From Sporomusa acidovorans (lineage in GTDB: Bacteria > Bacillota > Negativicutes > Sporomusales > Sporomusaceae): a DNA stretch of 64,000 nt. The position numbers were made by a program, and so were the translations under genes. Numbering within the stretch: position 1 is the stretch's first letter; the number at the start of each line of letters is the position of its first letter. The stretch is taken from assembly GCF_900101845.1 (NCBI RefSeq), contig NZ_FNAM01000008.1:1-64000 (forward strand), read 5' to 3'. Below, piece by piece: positions 5,719 to 22,562 of this stretch. A model generated the notes under the pieces. The model was not told the DNA's origin. It made no database searches and saw only the letters and a program-made list of their open reading frames with translations.

Positions 5719-7419
5719 TTGGTAAAGCTGGCACTTTCCTATTGGTTGTCGGCCGTAGCGCCAAAAGCATGGATATTATCCCTTTTCCTAGTTTTTTGCA
5801 CAGGCCTGCTTGCTTTTTTAAATATGCAACTCAACAACTGGCAGGTAGACTTCTATAACCATTTGCAACAACATAACCTGTCTGGTTTTTTCCAGGATTT
5901 AGTGCAATTTGTCATAATAACTTCTATTTTAGTTACAACATCAGGCTGGCAGACTCATAGTAAGATGCTGCTGCAAATATGCTGGCGACAGTGGCTAACA
6001 AATACATATATATCTCTCTGGCTCCATAATCAAACTTACTTTCGTATAAAATTCACTGCCACTCCTATCGATAATCCTGACCAACGAATTGAAGAAGACA
6101 TTCAGCTTTTCGTTACCCATTCGCTCGATTTAGCGGTAGGCTTACTGCGCCATTTAGTAACCCTTGTCATATTTTCAGCTGTCCTTTGGAAATTGTCAGG
6201 AGACCTAACCATACTTTTGTTTGGTACACCTTATATAATTCCAGGATATTTAGTTTGGTCGGCCCTGCTTTATTCCGCTTTTGGAACCTGGATAACCGTC
6301 AAAATAGGGCGGCCACTCATGATTCTAAACAATATTCAACAAAGCAACGAGGCGGATTTCCGGTATAAATTAGTGCGAGTCAAAGAATATGCAGAATGCA
6401 TTGCATTATATAGAGGAGCTTGCTGGGAAAAGAACAGCCTGTTCAAGAATTTTTCACGCATTATTGCAACCTACCTTGCTATGATTAAAACAACAAGAAA
6501 TATAACCTGGATATCTTCAGCCTATACGCAGTTGTCTACTGTTTTTGCCTTTTTGATTGCGTCACCCAGATATTTCAATGATGAATTACAACTTGGCCAA
6601 CTCTTTGAAATAGCCGGTGCCTATTGGTATGTTCATTCCGCATTGTCCTATATCATTGAAAGCTTCGGAAAATTTGCCCAATGGCGCGCTGTAACGGATC
6701 GTCTCCGGCTGTTTTACGCTCAACTCAAATCACTGGAACAAATGAATAAAAAAACGTTATCTATTTGTAATCATAACACACTACTAACCAAAGAGCTTTC
6801 TATATTTTCACCAGCCGGCCACATTTTGATAAACAAGCTTTCCCTAGAAGTCACTGCTGGTGACAGCTTGCTTATTACCGGTCCTTCCGGTTGTGGAAAA
6901 AGCACACTGCTGCAGACCCTGGCCGGAATTTGGCCCTATTTCGACGGGCGAATCTCCCTTCCGTCCCACAGCGGTGTACTGTTTCTTCCACAAAAGCCCT
7001 ACCTCCCCGTAGACTCCCTGCGCAATGTTGTTCTCTACCCGCAAAAAGCTGACCTCATTCCGGACACAAAGATAAAAGAAGCGCTCACTATCTGCAAATT
7101 AAACGGCTTGCTCTCACAACTGGACATGGAAGCAGACTGGTCCAAAACCCTTTCGCTCGGTGAACTCCAACGCCTTGCGCTTGTCAGAGCCTTCATCCAT
7201 CAACCTAAATGGCTATTTCTCGATGAAATCACTGCCTGTATTGACGCTGACACAGAAGCACAAATATACCAGGTACTTAGAGAAAAATTACCCCACTCAT
7301 CGTTAATCAGTATTGGCCATAGAGATTCACTAAAAGTTCACCATCGCCGAATTTTAGAGTTAAATGGTACAGGCGACTGGCGTTGCTTTGAACAACCCCA
7401 GGCATCCGCTGCGCTTTAA
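5719..7419 (+). CDS. ABC transporter, fused permease-ATPase of the BacA/SbmA/Rv1819c type
   Basis: Inner-membrane half-transporter of 566 residues. The N-terminal ~330 residues form a membrane domain with the family signature LNNWQVDFYNHLQ. The C-terminal ATPase has Walker A TGPSGCGKST, the family-specific signature LSLGELQRLALVRA and Walker B WLFLDEITA. The start is TTG at 5719, with GAGAGGAG eight bases upstream. Members include E. coli YddA and mycobacterial Rv1819c, the latter a known cobalamin importer. It is the only plus-strand gene in the first 56 kb and converges on the adenosyltransferase gene with a six-base gap. A role in corrinoid uptake is an inference from family and position; no riboswitch precedes it. 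Confidence 0.8.
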   Translation: MVKLALSYWLSAVAPKAWILSLFLVFCTGLLAFLNMQLNNWQVDFYNHLQQHNLSGFFQDLVQFVIITSILVTTSGWQTHSKMLLQICWRQWLTNTYISLWLHNQTYFRIKFTATPIDNPDQRIEEDIQLFVTHSLDLAVGLLRHLVTLVIFSAVLWKLSGDLTILLFGTPYIIPGYLVWSALLYSAFGTWITVKIGRPLMILNNIQQSNEADFRYKLVRVKEYAECIALYRGACWEKNSLFKNFSRIIATYLAMIKTTRNITWISSAYTQLSTVFAFLIASPRYFNDELQLGQLFEIAGAYWYVHSALSYIIESFGKFAQWRAVTDRLRLFYAQLKSLEQMNKKTLSICNHNTLLTKELSIFSPAGHILINKLSLEVTAGDSLLITGPSGCGKSTLLQTLAGIWPYFDGRISLPSHSGVLFLPQKPYLPVDSLRNVVLYPQKADLIPDTKIKEALTICKLNGLLSQLDMEADWSKTLSLGELQRLALVRAFIHQPKWLFLDEITACIDADTEAQIYQVLREKLPHSSLISIGHRDSLKVHHRRILELNGTGDWRCFEQPQASAAL

Positions 7420-7425: not shown

Positions 7426-7959
7426 TCAATACTCTATGCCTTTTTGGGCTTTAATTCCCTGTTTCAGCGGATGTTTTATTTCTTTCATTTCTGTAACCAA
7501 ATCCGCTTTGTCAATAATCTCCTGCCGCGCTTCGCGACCGGTAAGCACCAGATGCAAAGACTCCGGTTTCATTGCCAGCAATTGCAGGACTTCGTCCACT
7601 TGAATCAAGCCGAACATAATTGCATAATTAATTTCATCCAGGATAATCATGTCCCATTTACCGGACATGATTTCAGTTTTTGCATCACGCAACGCATGTT
7701 CGGCTGCTGCTTTGTGGTCAGCCCGGTCATCATCTTTGATGTTTCTTACGAAACCTTCGCCCAATTGGCGGATGACAAAATCAGCCCCCATCCTTTCGGC
7801 TGCCTGCAATTCGCCATACTTCCAATTTCCTTTAATAAATTGCAGAACCAACACCCTAAGTCCCTGCCCCCAGGCCCTGAGCCCCAACCCTAAGGCAGCG
7901 GTCGTCTTTCCTTTGCCATTTCCGGTGTTTACGATAATCAAACCTTTTGTTTCCGGCAT
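7426..7959 (-). CDS. cobA: Cob(I)yrinic acid a,c-diamide / cob(I)alamin adenosyltransferase
   Basis: Transfers the 5'-deoxyadenosyl group of ATP to Co(I) corrinoids in the cytoplasm, making the coenzyme form. The CobA/BtuR/CobO family is recognised by the P-loop GNGKGKTTAA near the N-terminus and by IILDEINYAI and LVLTGREA. Length (177 residues) fits the family. ATG at 7959 is chosen: GAGAGG lies nine bases upstream, and the longer frame to 8052 has no ribosome site. It is the last gene of the riboswitch-1 operon with the nitrogenase-like genes and BtuCD, so imported or modified corrinoid would be adenosylated at once. Confidence 0.93.
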   Translation of the reverse strand: MPETKGLIIVNTGNGKGKTTAALGLGLRAWGQGLRVLVLQFIKGNWKYGELQAAERMGADFVIRQLGEGFVRNIKDDDRADHKAAAEHALRDAKTEIMSGKWDMIILDEINYAIMFGLIQVDEVLQLLAMKPESLHLVLTGREARQEIIDKADLVTEMKEIKHPLKQGIKAQKGIEY

Positions 7960-7993
7960 GTAATTCATCCTCTCTTTCTTGTATTTATTTGTG

Positions 7994-8185
7994 TTATAGC
8001 CAGCATTTTTTTCCGAAGCAAGCCATTTGTCTTGCCTTGAAGCATCCCTCAAGATAAGGCAGAGGCGTTACCGGCAACGCGATATTAGTAAAACAAGGTG
8101 TCTTTTTTCTTATTGGTCCAAAATCATCAACGCTATCTACCGGCCAATTCTTAGGAACATATTGACATTTACTATATTGCCGCAT
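7994..8185 (-). CDS. Small 63-residue protein with five cysteines, unknown function
   Basis: Not recognised. It starts at ATG 8185 behind a strong site (AGGAGGAG) and lies 16 bases after the BtuD stop codon and ~35 bases before cobA, so it is almost certainly translated from the same operon. The sequence is soluble-looking, with no signal peptide or membrane helix. Cysteines are at 7, 31, 48, 56 and 61, and the end reads CFGKKCWL. The cysteines could bind a metal or an Fe-S cluster, or act in redox work with the nitrogenase-like proteins; this is inference only. Confidence 0.7.
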   Translation of the reverse strand: MRQYSKCQYVPKNWPVDSVDDFGPIRKKTPCFTNIALPVTPLPYLEGCFKARQMACFGKKCWL

Positions 8186-8201
8186 TACATACTCCTCCTG
8201 G

Positions 8202-9473
8202 CTAATCAGGCACAGGATAAAAGCCTTCTCCGGCTGCCAACTGCTCTGCAAACTGCTGCGAATTCATGACAACGACCTGCTGCAATTTGAGCAGGTTCCT
8301 GTATACCGTGGTAGCTTTACCGCCGGTATAATCCCGCTCTTCGATGGGCGTATCCTCAATCACAATCAGTTTCCTGGCGACAAAAGCAGCTTCCAGATTA
8401 TCGAAATTCTGCTGTCCATAACATAAATTGCAAAGCACAGTAAAATCAGCCGCAAGAATCTTTTCCCGATTTTCTTTCGCCTGTATTTTTTCAATTTCAC
8501 AAAAAGGCTGGCCAACAATAGCCGCTATACCAAATGCCAACGCTATATCGGCATCGGTGTCCCCTTGTTGGAAAACTCCCCCGCTTAACGTATAGGCACT
8601 TTCGTACAAGAGCCGCAGTATTTTTCCCGCAGAGCCACCGCCGCCAATCACGTGAACCGCTCTCTGCCTTGTGGTCGTACCGGCGGCCTCGTAGGTATGA
8701 ATATCCAGATTACCTGTTACTTTATTGATGAAAACCGCTGAGTGCAAACCATAGGCTTTTTCAAGATTTTCCTTGGTGATCACTTCTTGGGGTTTTCCGT
8801 CCGCCAGCACAGTACCGTCAGCCAGCAGAATCAGCCGGGAACAAAACTTGGCCGCCTGTTTGATATCATGAGCGATAATAAGTACAGTCTTGCCTTCTTG
8901 GCACATAATCCGGCAATAGCGGAATATTTCTTCCTGATATACCAAATCCAGGCTGGCTGTCGGCTCATCCAGAAAGATCAGCGGTGTCTCCTGCGCCAAT
9001 ACCTTGGCCAGCAGAATACGCTGCCGTTCCCCGCCGGATACCTGCTGCACCGGTTTCTCCGCCAACTTATCGACGCCGGTAAACACCATATACTTCTGAG
9101 CGATCGCATAATCCTGTTTCTGCTCGCTTTGCCACCATTTCAGGTAAGGATAGCGTCCGGTCAGTACTACCTCACGGGCCGTAAAACCAAAGCCGACATT
9201 AACTTCCTGCTGCATATACGCGACATGTTGCGCCAATTCTTTTTCGCTCATAGCCAGTATTGGCCGGCCATACATTCTGACTTCGCCGGACGCTACGGCA
9301 CACATACCGCGTAAGCTGCGCAGCAAGGTGCTTTTGCCGACGCCGTTCGGCCCGATAATACCGATAAATTCTCCTGGTTTTGCGGCAAAAGAAATATCGT
9401 GCAGAATGGTTTTGCTCCCTAGAGCAACAGCGATGTTCAAAACTTCCAATGCCACTTGCCCGGCTTTCTTCAT
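8202..9473 (-). CDS. btuD: Corrinoid-type ABC transporter ATPase (BtuD/FecE family) with extra C-terminal domain
   Basis: ATP-binding subunit that should pair with the BtuC-like permease encoded four bases upstream (ATGA overlap). Residues 1-~255 are a standard FecE/BtuD ATPase: Walker A GPNGVGKST, signature VSGGERQR, Walker B LIFLDEPTASLD, H-loop IIAHD. The protein is 423 residues, against ~255 for the usual family. The extra ~160 residues begin with a Rossmann-like VHVIGGGGSAGKILRLLYES and run to the end. That domain is of unknown role; it could bind a nucleotide or corrinoid and couple import to processing. Confidence 0.88.
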   Translation of the reverse strand: MKKAGQVALEVLNIAVALGSKTILHDISFAAKPGEFIGIIGPNGVGKSTLLRSLRGMCAVASGEVRMYGRPILAMSEKELAQHVAYMQQEVNVGFGFTAREVVLTGRYPYLKWWQSEQKQDYAIAQKYMVFTGVDKLAEKPVQQVSGGERQRILLAKVLAQETPLIFLDEPTASLDLVYQEEIFRYCRIMCQEGKTVLIIAHDIKQAAKFCSRLILLADGTVLADGKPQEVITKENLEKAYGLHSAVFINKVTGNLDIHTYEAAGTTTRQRAVHVIGGGGSAGKILRLLYESAYTLSGGVFQQGDTDADIALAFGIAAIVGQPFCEIEKIQAKENREKILAADFTVLCNLCYGQQNFDNLEAAFVARKLIVIEDTPIEERDYTGGKATTVYRNLLKLQQVVVMNSQQFAEQLAAGEGFYPVPD

Positions 9474-10513
9474 GATAACCCGCCCCCTTTCTGAGCCTTA
9501 CGCAACAGGTACAGAAAATAAGGCGCTCCCACTAACGCCGTCATAATCCCAACCCGGATTTCAGAGGGCGGCATTATGATGCGTCCCAGCGTATCGCAGG
9601 CGACCAAAAACAAGCCGCCGGCCAACGCACAGGCAGGCAGCAAGGTGCGGTGTTCGGGCCCGAGCAACAGACGCATAATATGCGGCACGACCAAGCCAAC
9701 GAAGCCAATTGTACCACTGACACATACCGCCGTTGCCGTTGTCACGGCAGCAACAACCAGCAGCAATAACCGAAAAAACGCCACCGAAACTCCCACGGCC
9801 CGTGCTTCCTGTTCGCCTAATGCCAGAATATTGAGGTGCCTGGCCAGTAAACACAGAATAAGAATACCGATTACCACCGGTCCTACCGCCAGATAAACAT
9901 GGTCCCAGCGGCGGTAATCCAGCCCCCCTACCATCCAGAACAAGAATTCCCGTAGCCGGTACTCATTCATAAAGGTCAATATTCCCGAAGTTAATGCTCC
10001 CAGCAGCATGCTTACCGCCACGCCGGCCAGCAACAATACCATGACCGGAATTTTACCATCCCGCATTGCCAGAAAAACCGTCAGCCCGACCGCCAACAGT
10101 GCGCCTGCCAAAGCAAAGAAGGGCATATAAAAAATCCCGCTGGCCGTCACTCCTAAAGCAATCGCGATAACGGCTCCTAACGCTGCGCCGCTTGATACCC
10201 CGATGATTCCCGGATCGGCAAGCGAATTGCCAAATACCCCCTGCATCACGGCCCCGGAGACAGCTAACGCTGCGCCTACCAGGATTCCTACCAAAGTCCT
10301 TGGCATACGTATATGCCAAATAACCGAAACCTGTTCCTGCGTAACAGCTACCCCTTCTGCACCTGTAAGATGCAGCTGTTTCCCAATAACGGCCAAAGCA
10401 GCGGTAACAGGCACATTGATTTGTCCCCAAAGCAACGATAATAAAACAATCATCAATAGCAGCACAAGCATGCAAGCAAAAAAAACTGCTTTATTTTTAA
10501 TCCTGCCTGTCAT
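9470..10513 (-). CDS. btuC: Corrinoid/iron-complex ABC permease (BtuC/FecCD family)
   Basis: Polytopic inner-membrane protein of 347 residues, the normal length for the ten-helix FecCD family. Recognisable blocks are RMPRTLVGILVGAALAVSGAVMQG, typical of the second to third helices, and GTIGFVGLVVPHIMRLLLGP near the C-terminus. ATG at 10513 has GAAGGA upstream. It overlaps the BtuD gene by four bases and follows the second nitrogenase-like subunit by 44 bases. The riboswitch and CobA context favour a corrinoid over heme or siderophore. The binding protein is encoded elsewhere (intact copy at 35745-36728). Confidence 0.9.
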   Translation of the reverse strand: MTGRIKNKAVFFACMLVLLLMIVLLSLLWGQINVPVTAALAVIGKQLHLTGAEGVAVTQEQVSVIWHIRMPRTLVGILVGAALAVSGAVMQGVFGNSLADPGIIGVSSGAALGAVIAIALGVTASGIFYMPFFALAGALLAVGLTVFLAMRDGKIPVMVLLLAGVAVSMLLGALTSGILTFMNEYRLREFLFWMVGGLDYRRWDHVYLAVGPVVIGILILCLLARHLNILALGEQEARAVGVSVAFFRLLLLVVAAVTTATAVCVSGTIGFVGLVVPHIMRLLLGPEHRTLLPACALAGGLFLVACDTLGRIIMPPSEIRVGIMTALVGAPYFLYLLRKAQKGGGLS

Positions 10514-10557
10514 AACATTCAGTCCTTCTTATCTATTATCAGGTACCTTATATCGTA

Positions 10558-11853
10558 TTATCTTCGCTGACAATTCGCAATATGCCGGTTCCAGAGGCTC
10601 TCTGTCAGATAGCATGCCCCACGGAACCCCATTAAAGGCCAGTCACAAAGTTGAACCTCATCATAGACCGGTAAGGCGATATTCAGATAAACTGCATCTG
10701 CCACCGACCGTTGCTGCAATATAGCTCTTTCATTACTGCTCCCTAACAGCAATCCGCCGGTCAGCGCCGTCAATTCCTGCTCAATGAGCTGACTGTCGCC
10801 GGCAGCATCTAAAAAAGCATCGATATATCCCTCGGTGGCAATATGAGCCGGCCGCCGGTCATACGATACTACCGTCAGTCTGCCGGTATCCAGCCATTCA
10901 GTGCGGACAGCCACCGCCATGGCAACCGCAACCGAAGCCGGAGCGGCAATGAGCGTCTTGGCAAACCATAAGTCGCCCCAGATGCGCTGCATTTCCAATT
11001 CGGCAGCCTGTTGTTTGCGTTCCAGTCTTTTAACCTCCTGACTAACCTCGGAAAAATCGCAATCTGTAGGTGTCAGATGCTGTCTAATGGTTTCCAGCCA
11101 GGCAAAAGATCCCTGCAGACCGTAAGGCAACGCTAATGTCACATAGGGCATTCCATATCGTTCCTGTAACATGTTGGCCAAATCCAACCCCAATTCATCA
11201 TGGACAACAATATTGAGCGCTGCTTGGGCCATAGCGGTTATTTCCCCAGTACTGCTGCCTGCGCCCGGGCAGGCCAGCACTTGATAGCCTGCCCGCTTGA
11301 GCATCCGCTCAAGTTCCCGCACATCACTCGCACCCCGGTAATAACCGACCGTACCTCCCAGCAAATTGACAGCATTGGCTTGCACATTTTGGGGCCGGGT
11401 CAGCGCAATCTGATCGAAATAGGCTTTAGCCGCATTACGGTAACCGGCAGCGAAACCGCCCTCCATGCCGCCGCTGTCCATACAGACCACCGGACAAGGT
11501 AAATCAGCTTGCCTGGCAATTCCTGCAATATCATCACCAATCAAACTGACAGAACAACTATTTTCAATGAGTACAACGGCCGGTCTGGTCTGCCGGCGTA
11601 TGATCTGCAAAGTTTCCAGCAGACATTCTTCCGTACCGTAAATCACCGCATGATTATCGGCCTGAGTACAGTAAAACCTAGCGTTAATTTCCGGACACTG
11701 CTTTTGCAAGTAACGCAAGGCATAATAGTAGCACCACATGGGGCCGTTGGCGATTAGCACGGCGTCAGGAATACCGGCAAAAAAGGCGGCGGAACCCGTA
11801 AGCGCGCATGCCTCCGCTAAAAAGCGCGCATCGTTCCACTCTTCATTACACAT
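10558..11853 (-). CDS. Nitrogenase component 1-like protein (NifD/K family), subunit 2
   Basis: Belongs to the NifD/NifK/BchN/BchB/CfbD superfamily. With ATG 11853 as start, three cysteines fall where NifD ligates its P-cluster: Cys16 (ACALTGS), Cys41 (NGPMWCYYY) and Cys100 (NSCSVSLIGDD). No FeMo-cofactor-type ligand pair is apparent. GAGGTGG lies eight bases upstream of the chosen ATG, which overlaps the previous gene by eight bases, implying translational coupling. It is co-transcribed with a NifH-like reductase, another NifD/K-like subunit, BtuC, BtuD and CobA. There are no nifE, nifN or nifB genes, so nitrogen fixation is unlikely. I infer reductive chemistry on a tetrapyrrole. Confidence 0.85.
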   Translation of the reverse strand: MCNEEWNDARFLAEACALTGSAAFFAGIPDAVLIANGPMWCYYYALRYLQKQCPEINARFYCTQADNHAVIYGTEECLLETLQIIRRQTRPAVVLIENSCSVSLIGDDIAGIARQADLPCPVVCMDSGGMEGGFAAGYRNAAKAYFDQIALTRPQNVQANAVNLLGGTVGYYRGASDVRELERMLKRAGYQVLACPGAGSSTGEITAMAQAALNIVVHDELGLDLANMLQERYGMPYVTLALPYGLQGSFAWLETIRQHLTPTDCDFSEVSQEVKRLERKQQAAELEMQRIWGDLWFAKTLIAAPASVAVAMAVAVRTEWLDTGRLTVVSYDRRPAHIATEGYIDAFLDAAGDSQLIEQELTALTGGLLLGSSNERAILQQRSVADAVYLNIALPVYDEVQLCDWPLMGFRGACYLTESLWNRHIANCQRR

Positions 11854-13147
11854 ACAGGATGCCACCTCTTCTCTCATGCCGCTGTGCAAGCTGGACCAAT
11901 TTTGTCATTAAGGTGATGATTCCGCCTACTCCGGCCAGTGGTAAGAGCGGCAGAAAAAGTTGTTTCTTGCGTACATCAGGCAATTCGTGAGTGGTAATAA
12001 CAAAGTCGGCTGCTTCAAATAATACTGCATTGCCTTCTGACCGCGAAAAGCAAAAAATCTCTTTTTGCTGGCGCAGTTCCTGACGCAAATTGCATTCTTG
12101 TTTTTTGGTAAGCATCTCATCTAATACGGCAACACCTATTACAATTATCCCATAAAGAGAGATCAACTCCAACACCCACGCCGGGTCAAAATAAGTCAGG
12201 GGCCGGCCGATGCACAGCACTATTTTCTTGCCTTTCAATAACGGGCCGCATTCGGCTATATGCCTGGTTAACCGCGTTCTTTCCATTTCAACAGCCACTG
12301 CGGCTGCCTGTTCCTGCTGAAGAAACCGGCCAAGCTCTGTCAACCACCCGCTTGTCGCTTGCCAGCCAGTTGGATCATCACCGTCAAAAAACGGTATGCT
12401 TAGCAATTCATCCAATTTCATTCCTAGCTTGCGAATCCATGGATAAGACATTTTTGTACCACTAAGGGGTATCGTCATTGCCGAACACGGCACCCGCTTG
12501 ATATCTTCCAATGATGCGAAAGCCGGGAAATGGCTATGTACTATCAGCCCGAAATAGGCAAACATCCGCTTAAATTCCTGCACATCAGTTCCACTCGGTC
12601 CCCCGCGGTCACCTAATAAAGTAACCGTATGACTCAGCTTGGGCTGCCGGGTCATAAACCGTTCTGCCAACTTTATGCCCGCATGATAAAAACCGGTGTA
12701 ATAATCGCCGTCAAGATAACCGTAGCAAGGCACCGACATAACCGGTAGCCTGAGGTCCGCCTCGGCATCACTGGCGACAGCCGCCGTATCGTCGCCAATT
12801 ACGCCGGCTACACAGGAATTGGCAATCAAAATATACTTAGGTTTGTATCTGCGGGCTGCATACTCAATGCATTTTCTCAGCAGTTCAGCTCCGCCGAAAA
12901 CAGAATGTTCTGCCTGCAGGCCGCTGATGATAAGCGGCGCCGCATACTGTTCGGGACAAAATTGCCGCTCTACCAATGAACGGAAATGCATGCCCAGATC
13001 CATTTCCCTGCCAATATGGCCGCATGCTTTCGGACTATGATAGATGACCACCGCCCCTTCATTATGGGAGACAGCCCGCCAAACCCCCGGCATCGTACAG
13101 CTATATCCCCGCTTGCAAACGGTTGCGGCCTGCTTATTCATCACCAT
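11846..13147 (-). CDS. Nitrogenase component 1-like protein (NifD/K family), subunit 1
   Basis: Second member of the NifD/K superfamily in this operon, about 430 residues. The three P-cluster-position cysteines are all present: Cys17 (GYSCTMPG), Cys42 (SPKACGHIGRE) and Cys112 (NSCVAGVIGDD). The C-terminal part has the second Rossmann-like half (KKIVLCIGRPLTYFDP). The start overlaps the NifH-like stop; ATG 13147 or 13141 and TTG 13153 are all possible, and none has a strong ribosome site, which suggests coupling. A heteromeric D/K-like pair resembles DPOR (BchN/BchB) more than the CfbD homodimer. Substrate unknown. Confidence 0.85.
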   Translation of the reverse strand: MVMNKQAATVCKRGYSCTMPGVWRAVSHNEGAVVIYHSPKACGHIGREMDLGMHFRSLVERQFCPEQYAAPLIISGLQAEHSVFGGAELLRKCIEYAARRYKPKYILIANSCVAGVIGDDTAAVASDAEADLRLPVMSVPCYGYLDGDYYTGFYHAGIKLAERFMTRQPKLSHTVTLLGDRGGPSGTDVQEFKRMFAYFGLIVHSHFPAFASLEDIKRVPCSAMTIPLSGTKMSYPWIRKLGMKLDELLSIPFFDGDDPTGWQATSGWLTELGRFLQQEQAAAVAVEMERTRLTRHIAECGPLLKGKKIVLCIGRPLTYFDPAWVLELISLYGIIVIGVAVLDEMLTKKQECNLRQELRQQKEIFCFSRSEGNAVLFEAADFVITTHELPDVRKKQLFLPLLPLAGVGGIITLMTKLVQLAQRHERRGGILYV

Positions 13148-13949
13148 AGGCAAGCACTAACTCTTCTAAATCTTCAAAAGCCAGGGGGGTTGGCACAGTT
13201 AATTCCTGATTTTCACAAATAAAATTGGCTAACTGCCGATAAACCGCGGCTTGCGGCGCAGTTGACGCAAATTCTATTACCGTCTTACGATGAATTTCGG
13301 CCTTATTGACAGTGCGGTCCCGGGGAATATAGGCAACCAGCCTGGTATTTAACCGTTCGGCAAATTGCTGCAGCAGGGCTTGTTCATTAGCAAGCCCGCG
13401 GCTGTTGCCAATAATACCGCCAAGCCGTACCGGTCCCCGCGCGGCATAGCGGGCCACTCCCTTGGCAATATTATTGGCAGCATAAAGAGACATAAGCTCG
13501 CCGGAGGAAACAATATAGATATCGGTTGCGTAACCTTCCCGTATGGGTACGGCAAAACCGCCGCACACCACATCTCCCAGTACATCATACAGGACAATGG
13601 CTTCCTCAGGCAAAGCCTGCAAGGCTTTCAGCTTTTCCAGCGCCACAATAATGCCGCGGCCGGCGCAGCCTACCCCCGGTTCAGGCCCTCCCGCCTCCAC
13701 GCAATGTACACCACCAAAACCGGTATGCACAATTTGCTCGGGTTTTACCTCTTCGCCGTATTTTTTCACCATATCAAGAACCGTTTGCTTGCAAACCCGC
13801 CCTAATAAGAGCCGCGTTGAATCATTCTTGGGATCACAACCAATTTGGCAGACCTGATAGCCGTTTTCCGCCAACGCTGCCGATACATTGGCGGCAGTCG
13901 TAGACTTGCCAATACCGCCCTTACCGTAAAAGGCAATCTTTTTTTGCAT
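13134..13949 (-). CDS. Nitrogenase iron protein-like reductase (NifH/BchL/CfbC family)
   Basis: ATP-dependent [4Fe-4S] reductase of 271 residues. The P-loop is GKGGIGKST (9-17). The two cluster cysteines are Cys95 in GVGCAGRG and Cys129 in DVVCGGFAVP, both in the right context. The switch region YDVLGDVVCGG is intact. ATG 13949 follows GGAGAGG. It should donate electrons to the two component 1-like subunits encoded directly downstream with overlapping ends. All residues needed for activity appear present. Placement under a cobalamin riboswitch with BtuCD and CobA, not with nif genes, is the remarkable point. Confidence 0.92.
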   Translation of the reverse strand: MQKKIAFYGKGGIGKSTTAANVSAALAENGYQVCQIGCDPKNDSTRLLLGRVCKQTVLDMVKKYGEEVKPEQIVHTGFGGVHCVEAGGPEPGVGCAGRGIIVALEKLKALQALPEEAIVLYDVLGDVVCGGFAVPIREGYATDIYIVSSGELMSLYAANNIAKGVARYAARGPVRLGGIIGNSRGLANEQALLQQFAERLNTRLVAYIPRDRTVNKAEIHRKTVIEFASTAPQAAVYRQLANFICENQELTVPTPLAFEDLEELVLAYGDE

Positions 13950-14015
13950 AATTTCTTAGCCTCTCCTATTTATATACTATTATGCTACTAAACCTATGCT
14001 TGCTTTACTTTATCC

Positions 14016-14636
14016 TTATGGCTCAACCCCCAACTTTTTCAGCATATTTTTTGCCACCGTTATGGCTTCCCGCGTCTGTTTTTCAACCGGAACATTAGCC
14101 AGTAAGCTTTTATAAGCTTGAATAGCCTCATCCGGGCGATCCAGCTTTTGATAGCATACCCCTTTCACTAAATATGCGCCCGCATGCTTAGGCTGTACGA
14201 CAATTACCTGATCCAAATCATTAATTCCAAGCTCATACTGCCCCAGATAGTAATAACATATCCCCCGCCGGAAATGGGCGTCGATATTGCCGGGAGCCAT
14301 TTCTATAATCTTGGTATAATCAGCCGCCGCCGCATCATACTGCTTAGTTTCAGAATAAACTCTTCCCCGTACCGCATAGGCCTGTATATTTTGGGGATCC
14401 AATTGAATCGCCTGCGCATAATCGGCAATGGCCAAGGTAAACTGCTTGTCCTCTTCATAGGCTTTCCCCCTCTCTATATAGGCTGTAACCGCATGGGGAT
14501 CAGCCGCAATCGACCGGGTGCAAGCCGCGATACGTTCTTGGTTAATTTCGGCTTCCGCTTTCTTGCCGGCGGCAAACCCCAGGGATAGATTGGCCGTTAC
14601 CAATACAAACAGAACTAACACTACTAGTCTTTTCAA
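14016..14636 (-). CDS. Exported TPR-repeat protein
   Basis: First gene of the riboswitch-1 operon. A signal peptide (LVVLVLFVLVTANLSLGFAAG) is followed by about five tetratricopeptide repeats, for example AYIERGKAYEEDKQFTLAIADYAQAIQLDP-like units across residues ~45-180. It probably acts as an extracytoplasmic scaffold; the partner is not visible. TTG at 14636 is chosen as start, since CAGGTG lies six bases upstream; the open frame extends to 14669 without a ribosome site. It precedes the NifH-like gene by 66 bases. Confidence 0.8.
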   Translation of the reverse strand: MKRLVVLVLFVLVTANLSLGFAAGKKAEAEINQERIAACTRSIAADPHAVTAYIERGKAYEEDKQFTLAIADYAQAIQLDPQNIQAYAVRGRVYSETKQYDAAAADYTKIIEMAPGNIDAHFRRGICYYYLGQYELGINDLDQVIVVQPKHAGAYLVKGVCYQKLDRPDEAIQAYKSLLANVPVEKQTREAITVAKNMLKKLGVEP

Positions 14637-14742
14637 TAAAAACACCTGCCTTTTTCTTGCTATATACAACGTGCCAAAAACATCCTCTATGCTAAAATAA
14701 CGCTTGTGCCAAGCCCTTCAGGACGGCAGAAGCCTAATATTT

Positions 14743-14795
14743 TTCTTATCCCCTAGGTTAAATAATGAATCTTATACTTTCTGATGGGGTAAGAA
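14743..14795 (-). repeat. Inverted repeat in the operon leader
   Basis: TTCTTATCCCC (14743-14753) pairs with GGGGTAAGAA (14786-14795), allowing a long-looped stem between the terminators and the first gene. Its role is unknown. Confidence 0.4.
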
Positions 14796-14826
14796 ATTCC
14801 CGACTGCTTACGCAACCGGGAGAATT
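14795..14826 (-). terminator. Second (B-type) hairpin of riboswitch 1
   Basis: The stem AATTC-CCCG/CGGG-AATT, with TTGC/GCAG continuing inside, lies just after the A-type terminator. The run of Ts is poor, so it may be a pause or antisense stem rather than a full terminator. Similar CTCCCG...CGGGAG stems follow riboswitches 2 and 4. Confidence 0.4.
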
Positions 14827-14840
14827 CCTCAGTATAAACC

Positions 14841-14870
14841 AAATAAAAACTCCTGGTCCATGACCAGGAG
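14841..14870 (-). terminator. Riboswitch 1 expression-platform terminator
   Basis: The hairpin CTCCTGGTC/GACCAGGAG is followed on the minus strand by TTTTTATTT, lying between the aptamer and the TPR gene. This is the expected B12-induced terminator. Confidence 0.8.
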
Positions 14871-14929
14871 TAAATTCAGTCAAAAAGCACACTTACTGGG
14901 AATAAGCTCCACCATAAGCTAATGCATCT

Positions 14930-15127
14930 GTAATCTCCTCCCCATCACTCGTGGGTAAAGCGGCGATCTTAAACAGGCAGTTCTCCTGGCTCTGGATCAT
15001 AGTTTTCCCAAACCTTCCCAGGACTCTTGTCCCAGTGGCATATCCTTGGGTTCACTCCCCATTACAGTGGCGGGACCGCGCCGGCTTTTAACCGATCTTC
15101 CCTATTAAGCCCCTTAGGGCACCTGTC
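14930..15127 (-). promoter_or_regulatory. Cobalamin riboswitch 1 (nitrogenase-like/BtuCD/CobA operon)
   Basis: On the minus strand the aptamer runs from CAGGTGCC near 15127 to TTACAG near 14932. It contains the B12-box core GCCACTGTAATGGGGAGTG, the segment CGGCGCGGTCCCGCCACTG, and the downstream arm GCCAGGAGAACTGCCTGTTT. It is more than 90% identical by eye to riboswitch 2. Binding of a corrinoid should favour the terminator at 14841-14870 and shut off the operon. Confidence 0.93.
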
Positions 15128-15163
15128 TTACTTTTATGAAATTGATGAACCGTATTTAAGTTT

Positions 15164-15192
15164 AAATTATCATTAATTACCTATTTTGTCAA
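15164..15192 (-). promoter_or_regulatory. Promoter of the riboswitch 1 operon
   Basis: TTGACA (15187-15192) and TAATTT (15164-15169) lie 17 bases apart on the minus strand, ~40 bases before the aptamer. Confidence 0.75.
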
Positions 15193-15226: not shown

Positions 15227-17137
15227 TTAAAATACCGCTTTTACCCCTACGACATAGTTTCGCCCGCCGCAAGGATACGTGCTATTAGCGGCATAATTGT
15301 TATAATACTTGTCAAAAATGTTATTAACGGTAAGAAAAGCCGTATATTCCTTGCTGAATTTCCAGTTAATATCCGCATCCCATACCCAGTAGCTTTTCTC
15401 AATATAGTTATAATATTTAGGGTTTATCCGGTCAAAGGCAGCGGTCCCCTTGATATCGACGCTAAGCTTTTCATCCACGTAAGACGCCCCAATATTCCAG
15501 GTCTTTTTAGGAACATTAGGATCGCGCGCATAGTCCGCGCTACCGGTTTTATTTTGGACATCCATATAGGTAAAGCCGACAAAGCCTTTGAGTGTAGAAG
15601 TCAACTGCTTGCTTACCTGCAGTTCAATCCCATCGGCTTTTTGTTTATCAACATTGGACGGTACCCAATGCGAATTATAAACATCGGTGCCAATATCCTG
15701 CCAATTAATGGCATCTGTTAGTTGCCGTTTAAAATATGAAATTTTTCCTTCGGTAGTATCGTCAAATTTATGATTGATACCAAACTCCATATTCCAGCCG
15801 GTTTCCGGTTTTAAATCCGGATTGCCGTCATAGATATCGGTATAGGTTTTTGAATTATATGTATATTGTTCTACCTTATGCGGCCAGTACAAATCATCAA
15901 ACCGCGGCGCATGGAAGACCTTTCCCCAGGATGCATAATACGTGGTTTTGTCGCTGGCTTTATAATTGGCCGCCATATGCGGCGTCGACCGCTCGCCGTA
16001 CACACCATTATCATCATAACGGAACCCGGGAGTTACACTAAATTTTTGAGAAATGTCCCATTTATCCTGCAGGTAAATTCCCTTTACCGTATTATCCTTA
16101 CTGCCATAGGCTGAACTCTGGATTTCATCCTTGCGCCAGTCGATTCCTGATGATAACAGATGCTTGTCGCTTAGTTTTGTATTAACCTGATAGTTGAAGC
16201 CTTTAATCCGTACATCATGATCATCACTGACATTAAACCGGTGGGAAGCATTCTGGTACACCTTGAGTTGATAATCCGTATTGGTCGAAGTTTTTTCCTT
16301 GTAGGTAATATCCCAGTTATGCTGCTTGGTGGTATTATAACCATCGACAGCACTCCCGTCGTCGTCAACCTTAAAATATTCATAGGCCACGGTCAAATCA
16401 CCATTGCCCAGCTTATCGTCCACTCTAAAGGTATACGCGTTTTGGTCAACCCCTGTATAATTCACTGTTTTCCCGCTGCCATCGGTATAATTGCCTACAT
16501 GTTTTTTGTCGGCGCTGAAAAACCAGCTAAAATCGCCGTCTTTTCCCTGATTCGTCATGGCATAATTGCGGCTGTTCCAGTTTCCGCCTGAAGTCGTAAC
16601 TGTAGTCTTATTGTCTGTGCCTTTTTTCGTGATGATATTAATCACGCCGCCAACTGCGTCCGCACCATACAAGGCCGAGCGGCCGCCTTTAACGATTTCA
16701 ATCCGGTCAATATTTTCTATACCGACTAAACTTGTCAAATTTGTTGTTGCTGTACCAAAACCGCCAATGCCGTTAGGCATATTCATACGCCGGCCGTCAA
16801 TCATAACCACAACCTGCTCGCTGCCGTTAATAAAAGGAGCGCTGATACTGCCCGGCCTGCCATATGTCCCAATATTCACCCCGGGAATATGCCGCAATAT
16901 CTCGCCTAAATTCCGGTAGTTTCCTTTTTCAATTTCCTCGCCGGTAATTACCGTTACATTGGCTGCCGTCTCCGATGCTTTCACCGGCATACGGTTAGCG
17001 GTAACCACCACTTGATCAAACGAAAATTCCTGGTCCTCAGCCTGAACAACAGCGGGGAACTGGCATAATACCGCGCTTGCCACCATTGCATACAGCAGGC
17101 TTCTCCTGGATTTTTTCACTGTCCTGTACCTAATCAT
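15227..17137 (-). CDS. TonB-dependent outer-membrane receptor, BtuB-like
   Basis: Outer-membrane gated barrel for a corrinoid or related complex. A signal peptide (LLYAMVASAVLCQFPAVVQA) is followed by a TonB-box-like FDQVVVTANRMP. Then comes a plug domain (EIEKGNYRNLGEILRHIPGV to VGGVINIITKKG) and a ~480-residue barrel ending in YVVGVKAVF, with the terminal aromatic typical of BAM substrates. ATG 17137 follows GGGGGTAGG. It is the main product downstream of riboswitch 2, after a chimeric pseudogene whose last bases overlap it. Confidence 0.9.
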   Translation of the reverse strand: MIRYRTVKKSRRSLLYAMVASAVLCQFPAVVQAEDQEFSFDQVVVTANRMPVKASETAANVTVITGEEIEKGNYRNLGEILRHIPGVNIGTYGRPGSISAPFINGSEQVVVMIDGRRMNMPNGIGGFGTATTNLTSLVGIENIDRIEIVKGGRSALYGADAVGGVINIITKKGTDNKTTVTTSGGNWNSRNYAMTNQGKDGDFSWFFSADKKHVGNYTDGSGKTVNYTGVDQNAYTFRVDDKLGNGDLTVAYEYFKVDDDGSAVDGYNTTKQHNWDITYKEKTSTNTDYQLKVYQNASHRFNVSDDHDVRIKGFNYQVNTKLSDKHLLSSGIDWRKDEIQSSAYGSKDNTVKGIYLQDKWDISQKFSVTPGFRYDDNGVYGERSTPHMAANYKASDKTTYYASWGKVFHAPRFDDLYWPHKVEQYTYNSKTYTDIYDGNPDLKPETGWNMEFGINHKFDDTTEGKISYFKRQLTDAINWQDIGTDVYNSHWVPSNVDKQKADGIELQVSKQLTSTLKGFVGFTYMDVQNKTGSADYARDPNVPKKTWNIGASYVDEKLSVDIKGTAAFDRINPKYYNYIEKSYWVWDADINWKFSKEYTAFLTVNNIFDKYYNNYAANSTYPCGGRNYVVGVKAVF

Positions 17138-17733
17138 TTTCCTACCCCCAAATTTATTAAAATTAAGCCGGCACACATGTCCCGGTAAAAAGAAAAACCG
17201 AAACCGTTCTCTGTTAAATCAGCATCCTGTTTGGCAAAATACTGGTTGAGCGCCGGCATTTGAAAAGACTTGCCAATATTGGTATACCAGGAAGTACTGT
17301 CATTTATTTTATAAAGGGTCTGGATTTGCGGCAAAAAGACATTTTGCCTTGTCGCATAATCATCAATAAAATGCCCCCGCAGCCCCAGGGTTGTACTAAA
17401 GTCAGGCGTCATGGCATAGGTATACGCACCATATATGGCCAGACTATTGCGCAGGGCATTTTTACGAATAGCCGCCGTATCTGTGGAAGGATCATTATAA
17501 TGTTCAAGTTCCACCAATATCTCATCTAGGCTATAGGCTAAGGACACGATACGTTTTGGATTCTTCGCCAGCATCATGGTACAGCCGCTATCATCCGTTA
17601 TCGCATAACCGTCTTCGCTATGCGGTGTTTTCCCGGTGACCGGCCTGGCCCGGCACCCGGCAAGCAGTAGGCAGATCCCCACAAAAACTACCAAACACCC
17701 TAACAGCTTCCGGCTTTCGCTAAGCAGCCTCAC
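17134..17733 (-). pseudogene. Chimeric remnant: BtuF N-terminus joined to a TonB-receptor barrel fragment
   Basis: The first ~65 residues are a BtuF-like lipoprotein: signal with lipobox LLLAGC, then a domain start MMLAKNPKRIVSLAYSLDEILVEL that matches the intact BtuF (QKPQKIVSLLSSTDEILMGL). At about 17515 the frame switches, without a stop codon, into barrel sequence of a TonB-dependent receptor (FSTTLGLRGHFIDDYATRQN, then WYTNIGKSFQMPALNQYF). It then ends in unrelated residues before the next receptor gene. It therefore joins pieces of two genes in frame. GTG 17733 follows AGGAGGTG. The product, if made, would be a lipoprotein of unlikely function. It lies directly behind riboswitch 2. Confidence 0.85.
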
Positions 17734-17825
17734 TATACAGTTCACACCTCCTTTCCGGACCATCTAAGTACAAAATAACACAAGCATAGCCACACTATGA
17801 GCAAACATGATGGCAGCGAAGATAT

Positions 17826-17967: not shown

Positions 17968-18166
17968 CTGTAATCTCCTCCCCATCACTCGTGGGTTAAA
18001 ACGGCGATCTTAAACAGGCAGTTCTCCTGGCTCTGGATCATAGCTTTCCCAAACCTTCCCAAGACTTTCGTCCCAGTGGCATTATCCTTGGGTTCACTCC
18101 CCATTACAGTGGCGGGACCGCGCCGGTATTGCACCGGTCTTCCCTATTAAGCCCCTAAGGGCACCT
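17968..18166 (-). promoter_or_regulatory. Cobalamin riboswitch 2 (chimera and TonB receptor)
   Basis: A full aptamer on the minus strand, from CAGGTGCCCTTAGGGGCTTA near 18166 to TTACAG near 17970. It has the core GCCACTGTAATGGGGAGTG and the arm AGCCAGGAGAACTGCC. A near duplicate of riboswitch 1. Confidence 0.93.
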
Positions 18167-18191
18167 GATTCGGCTATATTCATTTTTATTC

Positions 18192-18237: not shown

Positions 18238-21200
18238 CTAACCGTCACAGCGTTCCTCAAGCTCTCCTTCAATGGAAAGATAAATATTCTGCAACTCTTT
18301 GACCATTTCCTCTGTCGTATTCCACATACCGCGCTGCTGCGCTTCCAGCAATGATTCGGCAATTCTCTGCAGCGCCCAGGGATTAACGTCCCGCATCCAT
18401 TCCCGCATGGCCGGATCAAGCGCATATTTTTGGGCATATTGCTCATACATCCAGTCTTCCATAACCTCACTGGTCGCATCCCACTGATAGCTATGCGCTA
18501 CATAGTTCGCCAAATCCGCCGCACCTTTGTAGCCATGTTTCTTCATCCCTTCGATAAACTTCGGATTCATCGCCTCGCCGCGGAACAAGCGCTTAATTTC
18601 AGCCTGCAGGCTGCGCATAATCACATGGCTTTTATCCGTGCTGTCGCCGCAATAAGAACGCGGCGCTTTTCCCCGGATACTGCGTACCGCAGCAATCATG
18701 CCGCCATGATACGAGTTAAAGTCATCAGAATTCAGGATGCTGATCTCCCGGTTATCCTCATTATGAATGGTCGCGTCGATTGTGCTTAGGCGCCGTTTAA
18801 ACAACTCCGGCAGATATTTCCCTTGTTCCTGTTGTCCGTACACATGCGCGCCCCAGCGTATATAAACTTTTGCCAAATCGTCAACCGTTTTCCAATTTTT
18901 TTCTTCCAATACATTGGCTACACCGGCGCCATAGCCCCCCGGCGGACAACCAAACAGCCGATACTCTGCCTGCTTTCTTGCTTCTTGCACACTAAGCCCC
19001 GTTTTCTCGAGATAAAGAGTATCTTCCATTGCATGCTTACGCACATAGTTCATCTCCGGGCTCTCCTCAAGCCCGGCCGCCATGTGAACTGCTTGATCCA
19101 TCCAGGCAACCGCACAGGGCATACTGTCCCTCAGCAGGCCGCTGAGCCGTCCGGTAACGTCAATTCTCGGCCGCTGCAGTTCGTCAAGCGGCATAATCTC
19201 CAAACCGACGACCCGGCCCGCTGCCTTTCTGCCAAACCGGCCGGATACCCAGCAGATACAAAAATTGCCCGATGCATTCGCCATGCGTCCGCATATTGGC
19301 GCCGGCCCAAAGAATGATCCCGATTGACTCAGGATAGCGTCCCTCAGCCGCAATATAATCATGAATCACCGCATCGGCCATTTTTTTGCCTGTCTCCCAG
19401 GTGACCCTGGACGACAGCATCCGCGGATCAATACCATAAAAATTTCGCCCTGTCGGCAACACATCCGCCCGGCCGCTTGTTGGCGCACCGGCCGGTGACG
19501 GCTCGATAAACTCACCGGCCAGCGCCTTAAGGGTATTGGTCATTTCCTGTACGGTTTTGCCAAGATTAGGCGCAATATCGGTGCAGATATAGCGGCATAT
19601 CGTGCGCATATCAGCCTGCAAATCCATGGCCATTTGTCCGTAGTCACGCAGCTTACATACATCTTCTACCGCCTCTTCCGCAAAATCCCGCTCCATCAGT
19701 GTTTCTATAATTTCCGCACTGGCCGCGCGTATACGGTCTGCCAGAGTGCCGCAGGTAATATTTTTCCCTTCTACAAGTTGTGCACTGTTCTCCAAGAGTT
19801 CATAATAATTATAGCCGTCCTTTTTGGCCAGCAGCCGGGCCAGGGAAGGCACCTGGCCGTTCTCAAGCCGGGTTAGCGCCAGCAGATATTCCCGCAATAC
19901 TTCGCCCTGCGGTGGACTACCGAGGATATGCAGGCCAACGCGGATCTGCATGTTCTTGATATCGGTCACATACGCATGAATTCTGCCAACATAGGCGCTG
20001 AACTCTTCATCATCCCCTTGAGCAATATCCTGATCCAAATGCGCCACCACAACTTTTTTCCGTATCAAGTCAATGGCACTTTCGGCTTTTTCCGGCTGAT
20101 TAATCTGGAGCTGGCAATACTCATCAACCAGCTTTTCTAATTCCTCCAGTTCGTCATACGTACCGGCATTGCTCATGGGCGGTGTCAGATAATCAATCAG
20201 ACAGGCTGCCCCGCGCCGCTTAGCCTGTACGCCTTCACCGACAATGGTAACAATATACGGATAAATATTCGGCAGGTCGCCAAGCGCAATATCCGGATAG
20301 CAATCCCGTGACAGGCCGGTCCCTTTGCCCGGCAGCCATTCCAGAGAGCCATGCGTCCCGACATGAACAACGGCATCTGCCTGCCAGATATCCCGCAGCC
20401 AATAATAATAAGCCAAATAATAATGAGTCGGCGCTGCATCAGACGAGTGATAAATTTTGCCCGGATCTTCGCCAAAACCGCGCGGCGGCTGAACAGTAAT
20501 CAAAATATTATCATGACATCAATACAGGTCTTACCGTCTTTCATAAAGTACTTACGGATTGCTTCCTCCAATCCCGGCGCACCCAGCTCAGAATTGGCAA
20601 TGCCATCGCTAAACACGGCAATCACATTAAAGCCCTGCCGCTCACATTCCTCAATCACTGCCTTGGGGTAGGCAAGGTTATCCATCAGCCATTCATTGCG
20701 ATAAAACAAGAAGCCAATGGTTAGGCGACTTGGCCGGCAAAAGGCCAGTGCATATTCCGCCAAATCGGTATAGGCCTGTCCAGCCCGCGGATGATAAATG
20801 CCATGCCATAGCTGCGGCATTGGCGGCTCAAAATCACCTGCAGCCTGGGTAAACCGTTGAAACAGCCACAGCCATAAATTTTTATAATTTTCCAGACCGC
20901 CATAAGTTTCATACTGCTCCAGGCAGTGATGGTCGTCAGCGTTAAATCCCGCAGAATCCTGTTCGTCAGCCTCATCACCGGCGGTAATTTTATAGAGTAT
21001 GTTATGTTGCCGAAAAAAACGGCGGGCTTCCCGGAAAAACGGCGCGTCAATTCCCAGCCCCATCCATTTGACGATGACAACCTTGGCGCCGGTCAGCTTA
21101 TTGGCCCATTCCTCATCCCAGACAGTTTCCTTCTCAATAATATAAATTTCCCCTTCACCCGGAAACCGCCCTTCCTCCTCAGCCATTTGTTTCGCTCTGG

Positions 21201-21249
21201 CCAAGGTATAACGAAGATCGGTATTAACGATAAAAATAATTTTCCCCAT
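18238..21249 (-). pseudogene. cobN: cobN-like metal chelatase large subunit, disrupted
   Basis: CobN/BchH-type chelatase subunits insert metal into tetrapyrroles with ATPase partners. Three frames are needed here. The N-terminal piece (21249-~20508) ends at GKTCIDVMI and stops. The middle piece (from ~20510) begins NILITVQPPRGFGEDPGKIY and carries VVHVGTHGSLEWLPGK. The last piece, from ~19228, contains LEIMPLDELQRPRIDVTGR and runs to 18238. The conserved block that normally lies before VQPPRGFGEDP (roughly 250 residues) is missing, so the first break is a deletion with frameshift. The second break is one extra base in an A-run (TTT on plus at 19226-19228); removing it restores PVWQKAAGRVVGLE. 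About 990 residues remain of ~1250. It follows the exported CbiZ gene. Confidence 0.88.
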
Positions 21250-21398
21250 CACAATCAACTCCCGCTAATTCCATGCCACTACCCGGCTGCAATTTTCTCC
21301 CACAAAAAAGCACCGGTATCCTGATAAGCTTTCCGGCCTTGAGAAAAATCCCAGCATCCCGGATCTAATGCGAATTACCTCACGGGTTAGAAAATCTA

Positions 21399-22562
21399 TC
21401 ATTTCGCGGCATCGATCCTGGCCGCTAAAATTTTTACGATTAGGGAGGACCAAGCCTGAATACTTGGTGCCAGTTCCGAAGAAGACGGGACAGACGGTGA
21501 AACCCGGTATTTACCGGCTGTCAATACAAGCAGATCATTGCCTGCCTGGATTAATTCGTCGCCGCTCAACAATCGCCATTGAAATTGATCCAATAAGTGA
21601 ACATACAGAGATGTGCCGGTTACCAGCGCCGGCTCCTTGTCCAGCTGCTCGAGAAACGCTAAAAACTGCTGCCTGTCAATCATTCCGTAAGCATGCAAAT
21701 ATTCCTGATACAGCGTTTCCTGCGTAACGCCGTAACGATTCATACGCCGCAGCACACTATGCTGCTTCTGAGGGGACAATCCGGTCTGCCGCAACAAAGC
21801 TTCCTTTACTGCCTGTTTCACTGTGCAGCCGATCAGTTCACCTAATTTAGAATGTTTTCCTGAATCCTCCAAGTATAGTGATGACCCCGGATTAGTAATA
21901 ATCATAGTTTGATCTGTTCCCGAACCGGTGGCCAGCCCACTCGAATATTTGCTGCCGGCCATCAGTTCCTGTAAGGCGGCTGTTTTGGCCTCCGTACAGG
22001 TTACCAGCGCCCGGGCCATTGTAGCCGGGGGAATATCGGCGTCAATAACCAGCATTATGTTAATTGTTCCCGGCTTATGCAAAGTTGTTTTTTCCCCGGG
22101 ATTAAAGTAAGTTGCCGGATCACCGGCCCGGCCGCCGTTGCCTTCCACCCCGCCCGTAACGATGGCTGTCACGGTAAGTGTTTTATAACTCTCGGTCTGA
22201 ATAGCGACATTGTCCATAGAAGCGGCCGTACCCATGCCGGTTACCCTGCCGGGATCAAGCCCCAAAGACCTTGCCACATCCTGGAGGTAACCCAGATAAG
22301 TAGTTGCATCTACGCCGGCAGCCCCTTTCATGTCGTGATTAAAAACGGCGCTCAGATGTTTCTGATATCCTCCGTTTAACAAAGATGTACTCAACACATC
22401 TCTGGGATTGGTAAAATTGACAAAAATACTGGTGTCCTGCCGGTAAACCGCGTCACCGGTCGATAATGTATAGATTTTTACCCGCTCGCTGGCGAGGCAG
22501 GGAATAATACTGCAGCACACAATAATAGCCAGCAATATTCCTACTCTCATATACCGTTTCAT
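21399..22562 (-). CDS. cbiZ: Exported adenosylcobinamide amidohydrolase (CbiZ family)
   Basis: CbiZ cleaves the aminopropanol/nucleotide-loop amide of corrinoids, allowing remodelling to a preferred cobamide. Family blocks are [45 protein letters not shown] and [16 protein letters not shown], with [10 protein letters not shown]. Unusually, ATG 22562 (AAAGGAGAG six bases upstream) opens a clear signal peptide, VGILLAIIVCCSIIPCLAS, so the enzyme should act outside the cytoplasmic membrane. A ~150-residue C-terminal extension is shared with the cytosolic paralogue at 32626-33780. It lies 13 bases after cbiK, in the same operon. Known CbiZ proteins are cytoplasmic as far as I am aware. Confidence 0.88.
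   Translation of the reverse strand: MKRYMRVGILLAIIVCCSIIPCLASERVKIYTLSTGDAVYRQDTSIFVNFTNPRDVLSTSLLNGGYQKHLSAVFNHDMKGAAGVDATTYLGYLQDVARSLGLDPGRVTGMGTAASMDNVAIQTESYKTLTVTAIVTGGVEGNGGRAGDPATYFNPGEKTTLHKPGTINIMLVIDADIPPATMARALVTCTEAKTAALQELMAGSKYSSGLATGSGTDQTMIITNPGSSLYLEDSGKHSKLGELIGCTVKQAVKEALLRQTGLSPQKQHSVLRRMNRYGVTQETLYQEYLHAYGMIDRQQFLAFLEQLDKEPALVTGTSLYVHLLDQFQWRLLSGDELIQAGNDLLVLTAGKYRVSPSVPSSSELAPSIQAWSSLIVKILAARIDAAK

Follow-up and report, generated by a model that had tools for sequence, protein, structure and literature searches.

The window analysed here, a stretch of 64 kb from Sporomusa acidovorans, contains at positions 7426-15192 an operon that joins three nitrogenase-like proteins, which we call NflH, NflD and NflK (together NflHDK, or Nfl), to corrinoid uptake and adenosylation genes. 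The operon is headed by a cobalamin riboswitch, one of eight in the window, whose aptamer (14959-15141, minus strand) matches the full length of Rfam model RF00174 (positions 1-189) with 109.9 bits against a gathering score of 31.5. Beyond the aptamer, a hairpin with 10 pairs and a loop of 3, followed by a T run, marks an intrinsic terminator that is likely riboswitch-controlled (14849-14871, minus strand). Since the pattern scan returned 13 terminator-like sites against 9.9 expected in shuffled sequences, the case for this terminator rests on the quality and place of the 14871-14849 hairpin. A preliminary description of this DNA had listed both a promoter and a terminator; the hairpin is indeed well placed, and the promoter is a consensus match only, of which there were 15 against 11.6 expected.

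The first open reading frame (ORF), at 14016-14669, encodes a TPR-repeat protein (four stretches of Pfam TPR_1), which is absent from the gene groups common to at least four of the 33 related loci described below. It is followed by NflH, a NifH-like ATP-dependent reductase (13134-13949; PF00142, 361 bits), by NflD, a NifD-like subunit (11846-13153; PF00148, 169 bits), and by NflK, a BchB-like subunit (10558-11889; PF00148, 184 bits). Downstream are a BtuC-type ABC permease (9470-10513; PF01032 or FecCD, 328 bits), for which the nearest NCBIfam model is the vitamin B12 permease BtuC (293.5 bits, under the cut-off of 461), and a BtuD-type ATPase with a C-terminal extension (8202-9473), nearest to the corrinoid ABC transporter ATPase NF007082 (306.8 bits, under the cut-off of 537). 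A small cysteine-rich ORF (7994-8185) encodes 63 aa from the ATG at 8185, or 85 aa as listed from an upstream TTG, and matched no family in profile searches of the window proteins. The last gene encodes CobA, the cob(I)yrinic acid a,c-diamide adenosyltransferase (7426-8052; TIGR00708, 210.9 bits, cut-off 167.75; PF02572, 227 bits). ORF, Pfam and Rfam searches confirm the earlier account of all these parts on one strand, the minus strand, with short gaps or overlaps; with the ORFs as listed, some of them from upstream TTG starts, 66 and 44 bp separate two pairs of neighbours and all others overlap by 4-59 bp. On the plus strand, an SbmA/BacA-like ABC protein (5719-7419; PF06472, PF05992) converges on the end of the operon; a mycobacterial BacA is reported as a cobalamin carrier in the consulted part of PMC10960864.

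Residues, profiles and trees of NflHDK

Five cysteine columns of NflH are kept in at least 23 of 24 aligned NflH rows. The three cysteines at P-cluster positions that had been noted earlier in each D/K protein, C19, C44 and C114 of NflD and C28, C53 and C112 of NflK, are invariant in alignments of 22 rows each, the sole exception being an NflD row whose late start leaves out the first cysteine. Column 417 of the D/K alignment, which we read as the position of the Cys ligand to the iron-molybdenum cofactor (FeMo-co), holds Cys in the NifD rows, S or G in nine NflD rows and H or N in 12 NflK rows; by this alignment NflD is without the cofactor ligand. An acid (E or D) occupies the position of BchB Asp274 in 22/22 NflK rows, with the same pairing in two alignments, and is E299 in the NflK of the window. 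At column 149 both BchB rows have D and 12/12 NflK rows have C. The AlphaFold2 model of NflD has a predicted local distance difference test score (pLDDT) of 82.4.

Equivalog profiles of the characterized relatives were not reached: NflH scored 377.9 bits with NifH (cut-off 394.35) and 368.8 bits with CfbC (cut-off 402), NflD and NflK scored 29.7 and 24.2 bits with CfbD (cut-off 268.4), and the best members scored 227.6, 23.0 and 92.8 bits with BchL, BchN and BchB, for which the cut-offs are 345.15, 419.95 and 490.35. The D/K tree was built with rows from eight of the 33 named loci, the window and three second NflK genes (NflK2), together with two Mar-like reference clusters (L054 and L058) labelled by their gene context. 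In this tree the NflD clade and the NflK clade are each recovered at 100/100, apart from the Mar-like rows, with NflD on the NifD/MarD side. The 14 Nfl rows of the NflH tree group at only 82/81, and the BchL and BchX branches there are very long; given this weak support, the H protein alone does not settle the placement. Of the comparison with known clades proposed in the preliminary description, the separation from the Mar-like rows was thus obtained by phylogeny and that from CfbD by profile score only, because the trees held no CfbCD sequence. The profile scores and the D/K tree support NflHDK as a separate branch of nitrogenase-like enzymes serving neither nitrogen fixation nor chlorophyll synthesis, as had been suggested.

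Nitrogen fixation was rejected as a function on the missing cofactor Cys and the presence of a separate nif-type cluster in the S. acidovorans genome, chlorophyll synthesis on the lack of any BchLNB-level score, membership of Mar on the absent Cys270-type ligand and the clades standing apart from the Mar-like rows, and membership of CfbCD on the CfbC and CfbD profile scores. The earlier statement that nifB, nifE and nifN are lacking holds for the operon but not for the genome, in which contig C54 carries that nif-type cluster, with four PF00148 genes and an adjoining NifH gene. Contig C57 of the same genome (L003/L004) holds NifH-like pieces, of which one has a TGA in frame, together with a short NifD/K-like piece, and all of them look broken.

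Gene neighbourhoods and the link to CobN

Occurrence was assessed in 300 genomes of the class, taken as Negativicutes. Profile A1 matches of at least 404 bits and three fragments define an Nfl set of 87 loci in 75 genomes, from which six intermediate loci (209-279 bits) and the Nif-type matches (about 141-158 bits) were set apart. Nfl is therefore found in 75/300 class genomes and 28 genera, and the search for the same neighbourhood that the preliminary description called for shows a family rather than a one-off. CobN, scored as present at an E-value of 1e-100 or better, occurs in 103/300 genomes, 70 of which also have Nfl; in the other five of the 75 Nfl genomes it was absent even on a renewed search at 1e-5. 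With 33 CobN genomes lacking Nfl against five of 75 Nfl genomes lacking CobN the link is one-sided, which fits Nfl working in the pathway of CobN and not the reverse. Fisher values for this co-occurrence take no account of phylogeny and do not enter the argument. CobN lies on the Nfl contig in 57/87 loci, within 15 kb in 48 of those 57, and on the same strand in 48/48, whereas among 50 Nif-type control loci found with the same profile (38 genomes, nine with CobN) it was on the contig in eight and within 15 kb in 0/8. CbiZ is present in 54/75 Nfl genomes and CbiC, a marker of de novo synthesis, in 69/75, so that corrin ring synthesis is probably within reach of most Nfl carriers as well. When 299 genomes of the phylum were searched at 1e-100, two matched, S. 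acidovorans itself and one of the same class; Pelotomaculum propionicicum (L028) is a carrier outside the class, and one Nfl-bearing metagenome-assembled genome is labelled Acholeplasmataceae.

Around the NflD relatives, 33 named loci (L019-L051, which partly share genomes with the unnamed loci L059-L144) include genes for BtuF-type proteins in 23, BtuC in 19, CobN in 19, CbiZ in 18, ChlI/D in 16, radical SAM proteins in 15, a TonB receptor in 14, a TIM-barrel protein in 11, CbiK in nine and CobA in five. Among 86 fetched Nfl loci, 58 lie in an island with same-strand corrinoid or chelatase genes. Because the island label is defined by neighbouring genes, the counts within islands are conditional on it: BtuF 49, CobN 46, BtuC 38, TonB 38, ChlI/D 36, CbiZ 27, radical SAM 26, CbiK nine and CobA five. 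These recurring neighbours bear out the earlier proposal of a tie to corrinoid uptake genes. The nearest neighbour of Nfl (within 300 bp) is mostly BtuF, downstream in 21 cases and upstream in 12; CobN adjoins Nfl in four. A radical SAM/SPASM protein, a CN-hydrolase and a TIM-barrel protein also recur in islands, for example L083 and L029.

In the window itself, upstream genes on the same strand reach to about 36.7 kb and include CobN, CbiZ, CbiK, a TonB-B12-like receptor, TonB, ExbB, ChlI/D, radical SAM and BtuF-type genes; the functional unit stretches well past 7426-15192, the limits it was originally given. In order of rising coordinates, a TonB-dependent receptor (15227-17176, minus strand, as are all features of this island; PF00593 152.9 bits, PF07715 85.4 bits) is followed at 18238-21258 by a CobN-type chelatase gene in three open pieces, which looks broken and is without residues ~249-481 relative to the related CobN of L030; decay and an assembly fault, indistinguishable here, may each explain it. 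The genome has an unbroken CobN (L145) with ChlI/D on contig C72, and both proteins tested pass the TIGR02257 CobN cut-off of 822.05 (L030, 909.0; L145, 839.5). Next are CbiZ (21399-22592; PF01955, 205.6 bits) and CbiK (22576-23451; NF047852, 259.3 bits, under the cut-off of 400). The ChlI- and ChlD-type AAA/VWA chelatase motor genes (32214-32624 and 30562-32217) appear joined at ~32214, with the end of ChlI and the start of ChlD missing, and are followed by a second CbiZ, a CN-hydrolase, a radical SAM protein and a BtuF-type binding protein (32626-36737), the BtuF-type gene being preceded by two tandem cobalamin riboswitches (36862-37042 and 37183-37365). A short ORF (17134-17763, minus strand), directly preceded by a cobalamin riboswitch at 18000-18183, is apparently a BtuF-like lipoprotein start fused to a piece of TonB-receptor barrel. 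Elsewhere in the window, a CbiQ-type permease, a double ATPase and a second CbiK (48489-53948, minus strand), with riboswitches on both sides, are perhaps an energy-coupling factor (ECF) importer of cobalt or corrinoids, and at the window edge (1-242, minus strand) lies the start of a 16S rRNA gene, up to model position 148.

The six intermediate loci represent a second, divergent Nfl that repeats the pattern in part. Locus L146 has CbiZ, CobN, NflD, NflK, ChlI, ChlD and NflH in that order on one strand, closely spaced except for one gap of ~390 bp. The other five have no CobN within 15 kb; L147 and L148 have ChlI/D, BtuF-type and TonB genes nearby. Three divergent Nfl rows have Q or A at the BchB Asp274 position. 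Loci of Pelosinus carry a second NflK without an NflD of its own (L022, 14748-16112; L023, 10671-12029; L050, 3817-5175), right behind its own cobalamin riboswitch.

A proposed role in corrinoid salvage

We infer a substrate and a reaction from the operon, the separate clades of NflD and NflK, the absence of the cofactor ligand, and the observed linkage to CobN, BtuF/BtuC, TonB and CbiZ. Tentatively, we propose that NflHDK spends ATP to drive electrons into the rings of imported corrinoids, preparing the removal or exchange of the metal by CobN-ChlID. To judge by the gene families, corrinoids would be imported through TonB/ExbB and BtuFCD, and CbiZ would take off the nucleotide loop. An NflH dimer would hydrolyse ATP and hand electrons to a predicted Fe-S cluster held by the three conserved cysteines of NflD and the three of NflK. 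With no site of the FeMo-co type, this cluster could reduce the tetrapyrrole directly, as in dark-operative protochlorophyllide reductase (DPOR, BchL-BchN-BchB), and NflK E299 is the likely proton donor. CobN-ChlID, the probable partner of NflHDK, would then remove the metal or insert a new one, either direction being conceivable, after which metal or ring could re-enter cobamide synthesis. A bolder version, of which we are rather doubtful, is that NflHDK, which has a P-cluster-type site but lacks a cofactor at the active site, reduces scavenged cobamides at the corrin ring so that CobN-ChlID can pull the cobalt, and that in this way anaerobes reclaim the cobalt of foreign B12 analogues for their own.

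Several observations weigh against the proposed role of NflHDK. No island of corrinoid or chelatase genes surrounds 28 of the 86 Nfl loci, although four of these are on contigs shorter than 6.3 kb, and at one of the four, L061, Nfl has a TonB receptor and a CN-hydrolase for neighbours. Stand-alone NflHDK copies form three derived groups and one single locus; the groups comprise L101, L111-L114, L116-L118, L121, L123, L125 and L129-L140. No match was found at stand-alone copies with R1, our own riboswitch model made from the eight copies of the window, nor with Rfam in the seven that were searched, and their role may differ. In an NflD tree of 85 Nfl rows (a quick method, with midpoint root and Shimodaira-Hasegawa-like approximate likelihood ratio support only, from which L143 and L144 were dropped for partial NflD and in which four rows from cut-off or broken loci have no context label), stand-alone copies sit nested within island copies, to which the deep branches also belong, suggesting that the island arrangement came first. 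Many islands also lack a riboswitch: 36/58 have no R1 match within the stretch read, the other 22, across many families, have one, and NflH is directly preceded by a riboswitch in 12/86 loci. Since R1 may miss distant riboswitches, 14 loci were also searched with Rfam, and seven island loci without an R1 match beside NflH yielded one cobalamin riboswitch; such sparseness indicates that riboswitch control is limited to some lineages.

The riboswitch-less islands leave room for another tetrapyrrole such as heme, which may be the substrate there; it would be taken up by TonB and BtuFCD-like carriers and stripped by the CobN homologue. Heme and siderophores, too, are carried by members of the FecCD and binding-protein families. 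In Bacteroides the CobN homologue HmuS, according to the accessible portion of PMC12583661, removes iron from heme with the help of NADH and independently of ATP, an example of metal removal by a relative of CobN. We nevertheless find a non-corrinoid substrate improbable, because CbiZ (27/58 islands), CbiK (9/58) and the riboswitches (22/58) point to corrinoids, and because HmuS, as described there, needs no ATP, yet ChlI/ChlD motor genes are present in 36/58 islands.

The main rival accepts corrinoids and leaves the ring untouched: NflHDK would make Co(I) from Co(II) or Co(III) corrinoids at import, serving CobA and helping to take off the upper ligand. Co(I), a state of very low potential, is the form on which CobA-type enzymes act, and CobA ends this very operon. 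An ATP-driven activation complex for the metal centre of F430 is described in the part of PMC12176620 at hand. Against this, CobA occurs in just 5/58 islands and CobN, which the preliminary description did not mention, in 46/58, so that its 'just before adenosylation' is not supported as a general rule and a CobA-linked role fits the operon, not the family; nor would pure electron transfer call for an acid to be conserved where DPOR has its proton donor. We regard cobalt-centred reduction as unlikely, though worth keeping in view. Reduction of the ring during de novo synthesis, with uptake genes adjoining only through shared B12 regulation, agrees with the CbiC genes of 69/75 Nfl genomes, but CbiC occurs in 261/300 genomes with or without Nfl, the S. 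acidovorans CbiC is on contig C73 and the island on C49, and most of the genes that recur beside Nfl serve uptake and salvage, which makes it very improbable. Hardly credible is a Mar-like reductase of C-S bonds or other small molecules recruited beside B12 genes, since the column of the MarD ligand Cys270, as given in an excerpt of PMC12552129, holds S/G in NflD and H/N in NflK, and no NifB/NifX-type partner appears in the gene groups shared by at least four of the 33 loci.

No substrate is known, as far as we are aware, for several branches of the nitrogenase superfamily. For the Nfl clade as a whole, riboswitches and corrinoid neighbour genes make the tie to corrinoids and name a probable one, and the tight CobN-ChlID link suggests what CobN genes may do in organisms that also carry CbiK. 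We know of no enzyme so far that reduces the corrin ring; if ring reduction is true, NflHDK would be the first, the reaction would, as far as we know, be new to B12 chemistry, and ideas about what gut and soil anaerobes do with B12 analogues that they cannot use would change. In the open-licence PubMed Central (PMC) literature we found no paper that connects a nitrogenase-like enzyme with genes for B12 uptake or CobN, or either CobN-ChlID or HmuS with such a reductase; in the portion of PMC10418091 consulted, the sole 'nitrogenase-like' passage is a reference to the Mar paper.

Comparison with known systems

DPOR has an acid at the Asp274 (proton-donor) position in common with NflK. BchB has Asp at column 149, which we take to be the fourth cluster ligand, where NflK has Cys; a (Cys)3Asp cluster is described for DPOR in the available text of PMC4157233. 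NflK (443 aa) is shorter than BchB (517-520 aa in two references), NflD groups on the NifD/MarD side of the tree, and Nfl has a B12 gene context, all unlike DPOR. MarHDK, the methylthio-alkane reductase, is the closest profile and fold match of NflD, and the Mar-like rows have three plus three cysteines at P-cluster positions, as NflD and NflK do. MarD, however, holds an [Fe8S9C] cluster through Cys270 and His429 (PMC12552129, as excerpted), and Cys is absent from the Cys270 column of NflD; the NflD and NflK clades are separate from the Mar-like rows, and no NifB/NifX or sulphur genes are among the recurring Nfl neighbours (33 loci, groups shared by at least four).

CfbCD, the Ni-sirohydrochlorin a,c-diamide reductase of the F430 pathway, reduces a tetrapyrrole ring with ATP (PMC7242693); NflH comes near the CfbC cut-off but stays under it (368.8 against 402 bits), and Nfl has two different D/K genes. 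Molybdenum nitrogenase, NifHDK, shares the superfamily and the P-cluster cysteines, whereas the cofactor Cys is absent in Nfl and S. acidovorans has its nif-type cluster elsewhere. The likely partner CobN-ChlID belongs to the same family as the CobN-ChlID cobaltochelatase and the de-chelatase HmuS. HmuS is marked by membrane anchors, a Met-rich insertion and the lack of ATPase partners; in this last respect the Nfl islands, 36/58 of which carry ChlI/ChlD, differ. We place Nfl with the nitrogenase-like reductases as a variant of its own, a corrin-ring reductase being the bolder possibility.

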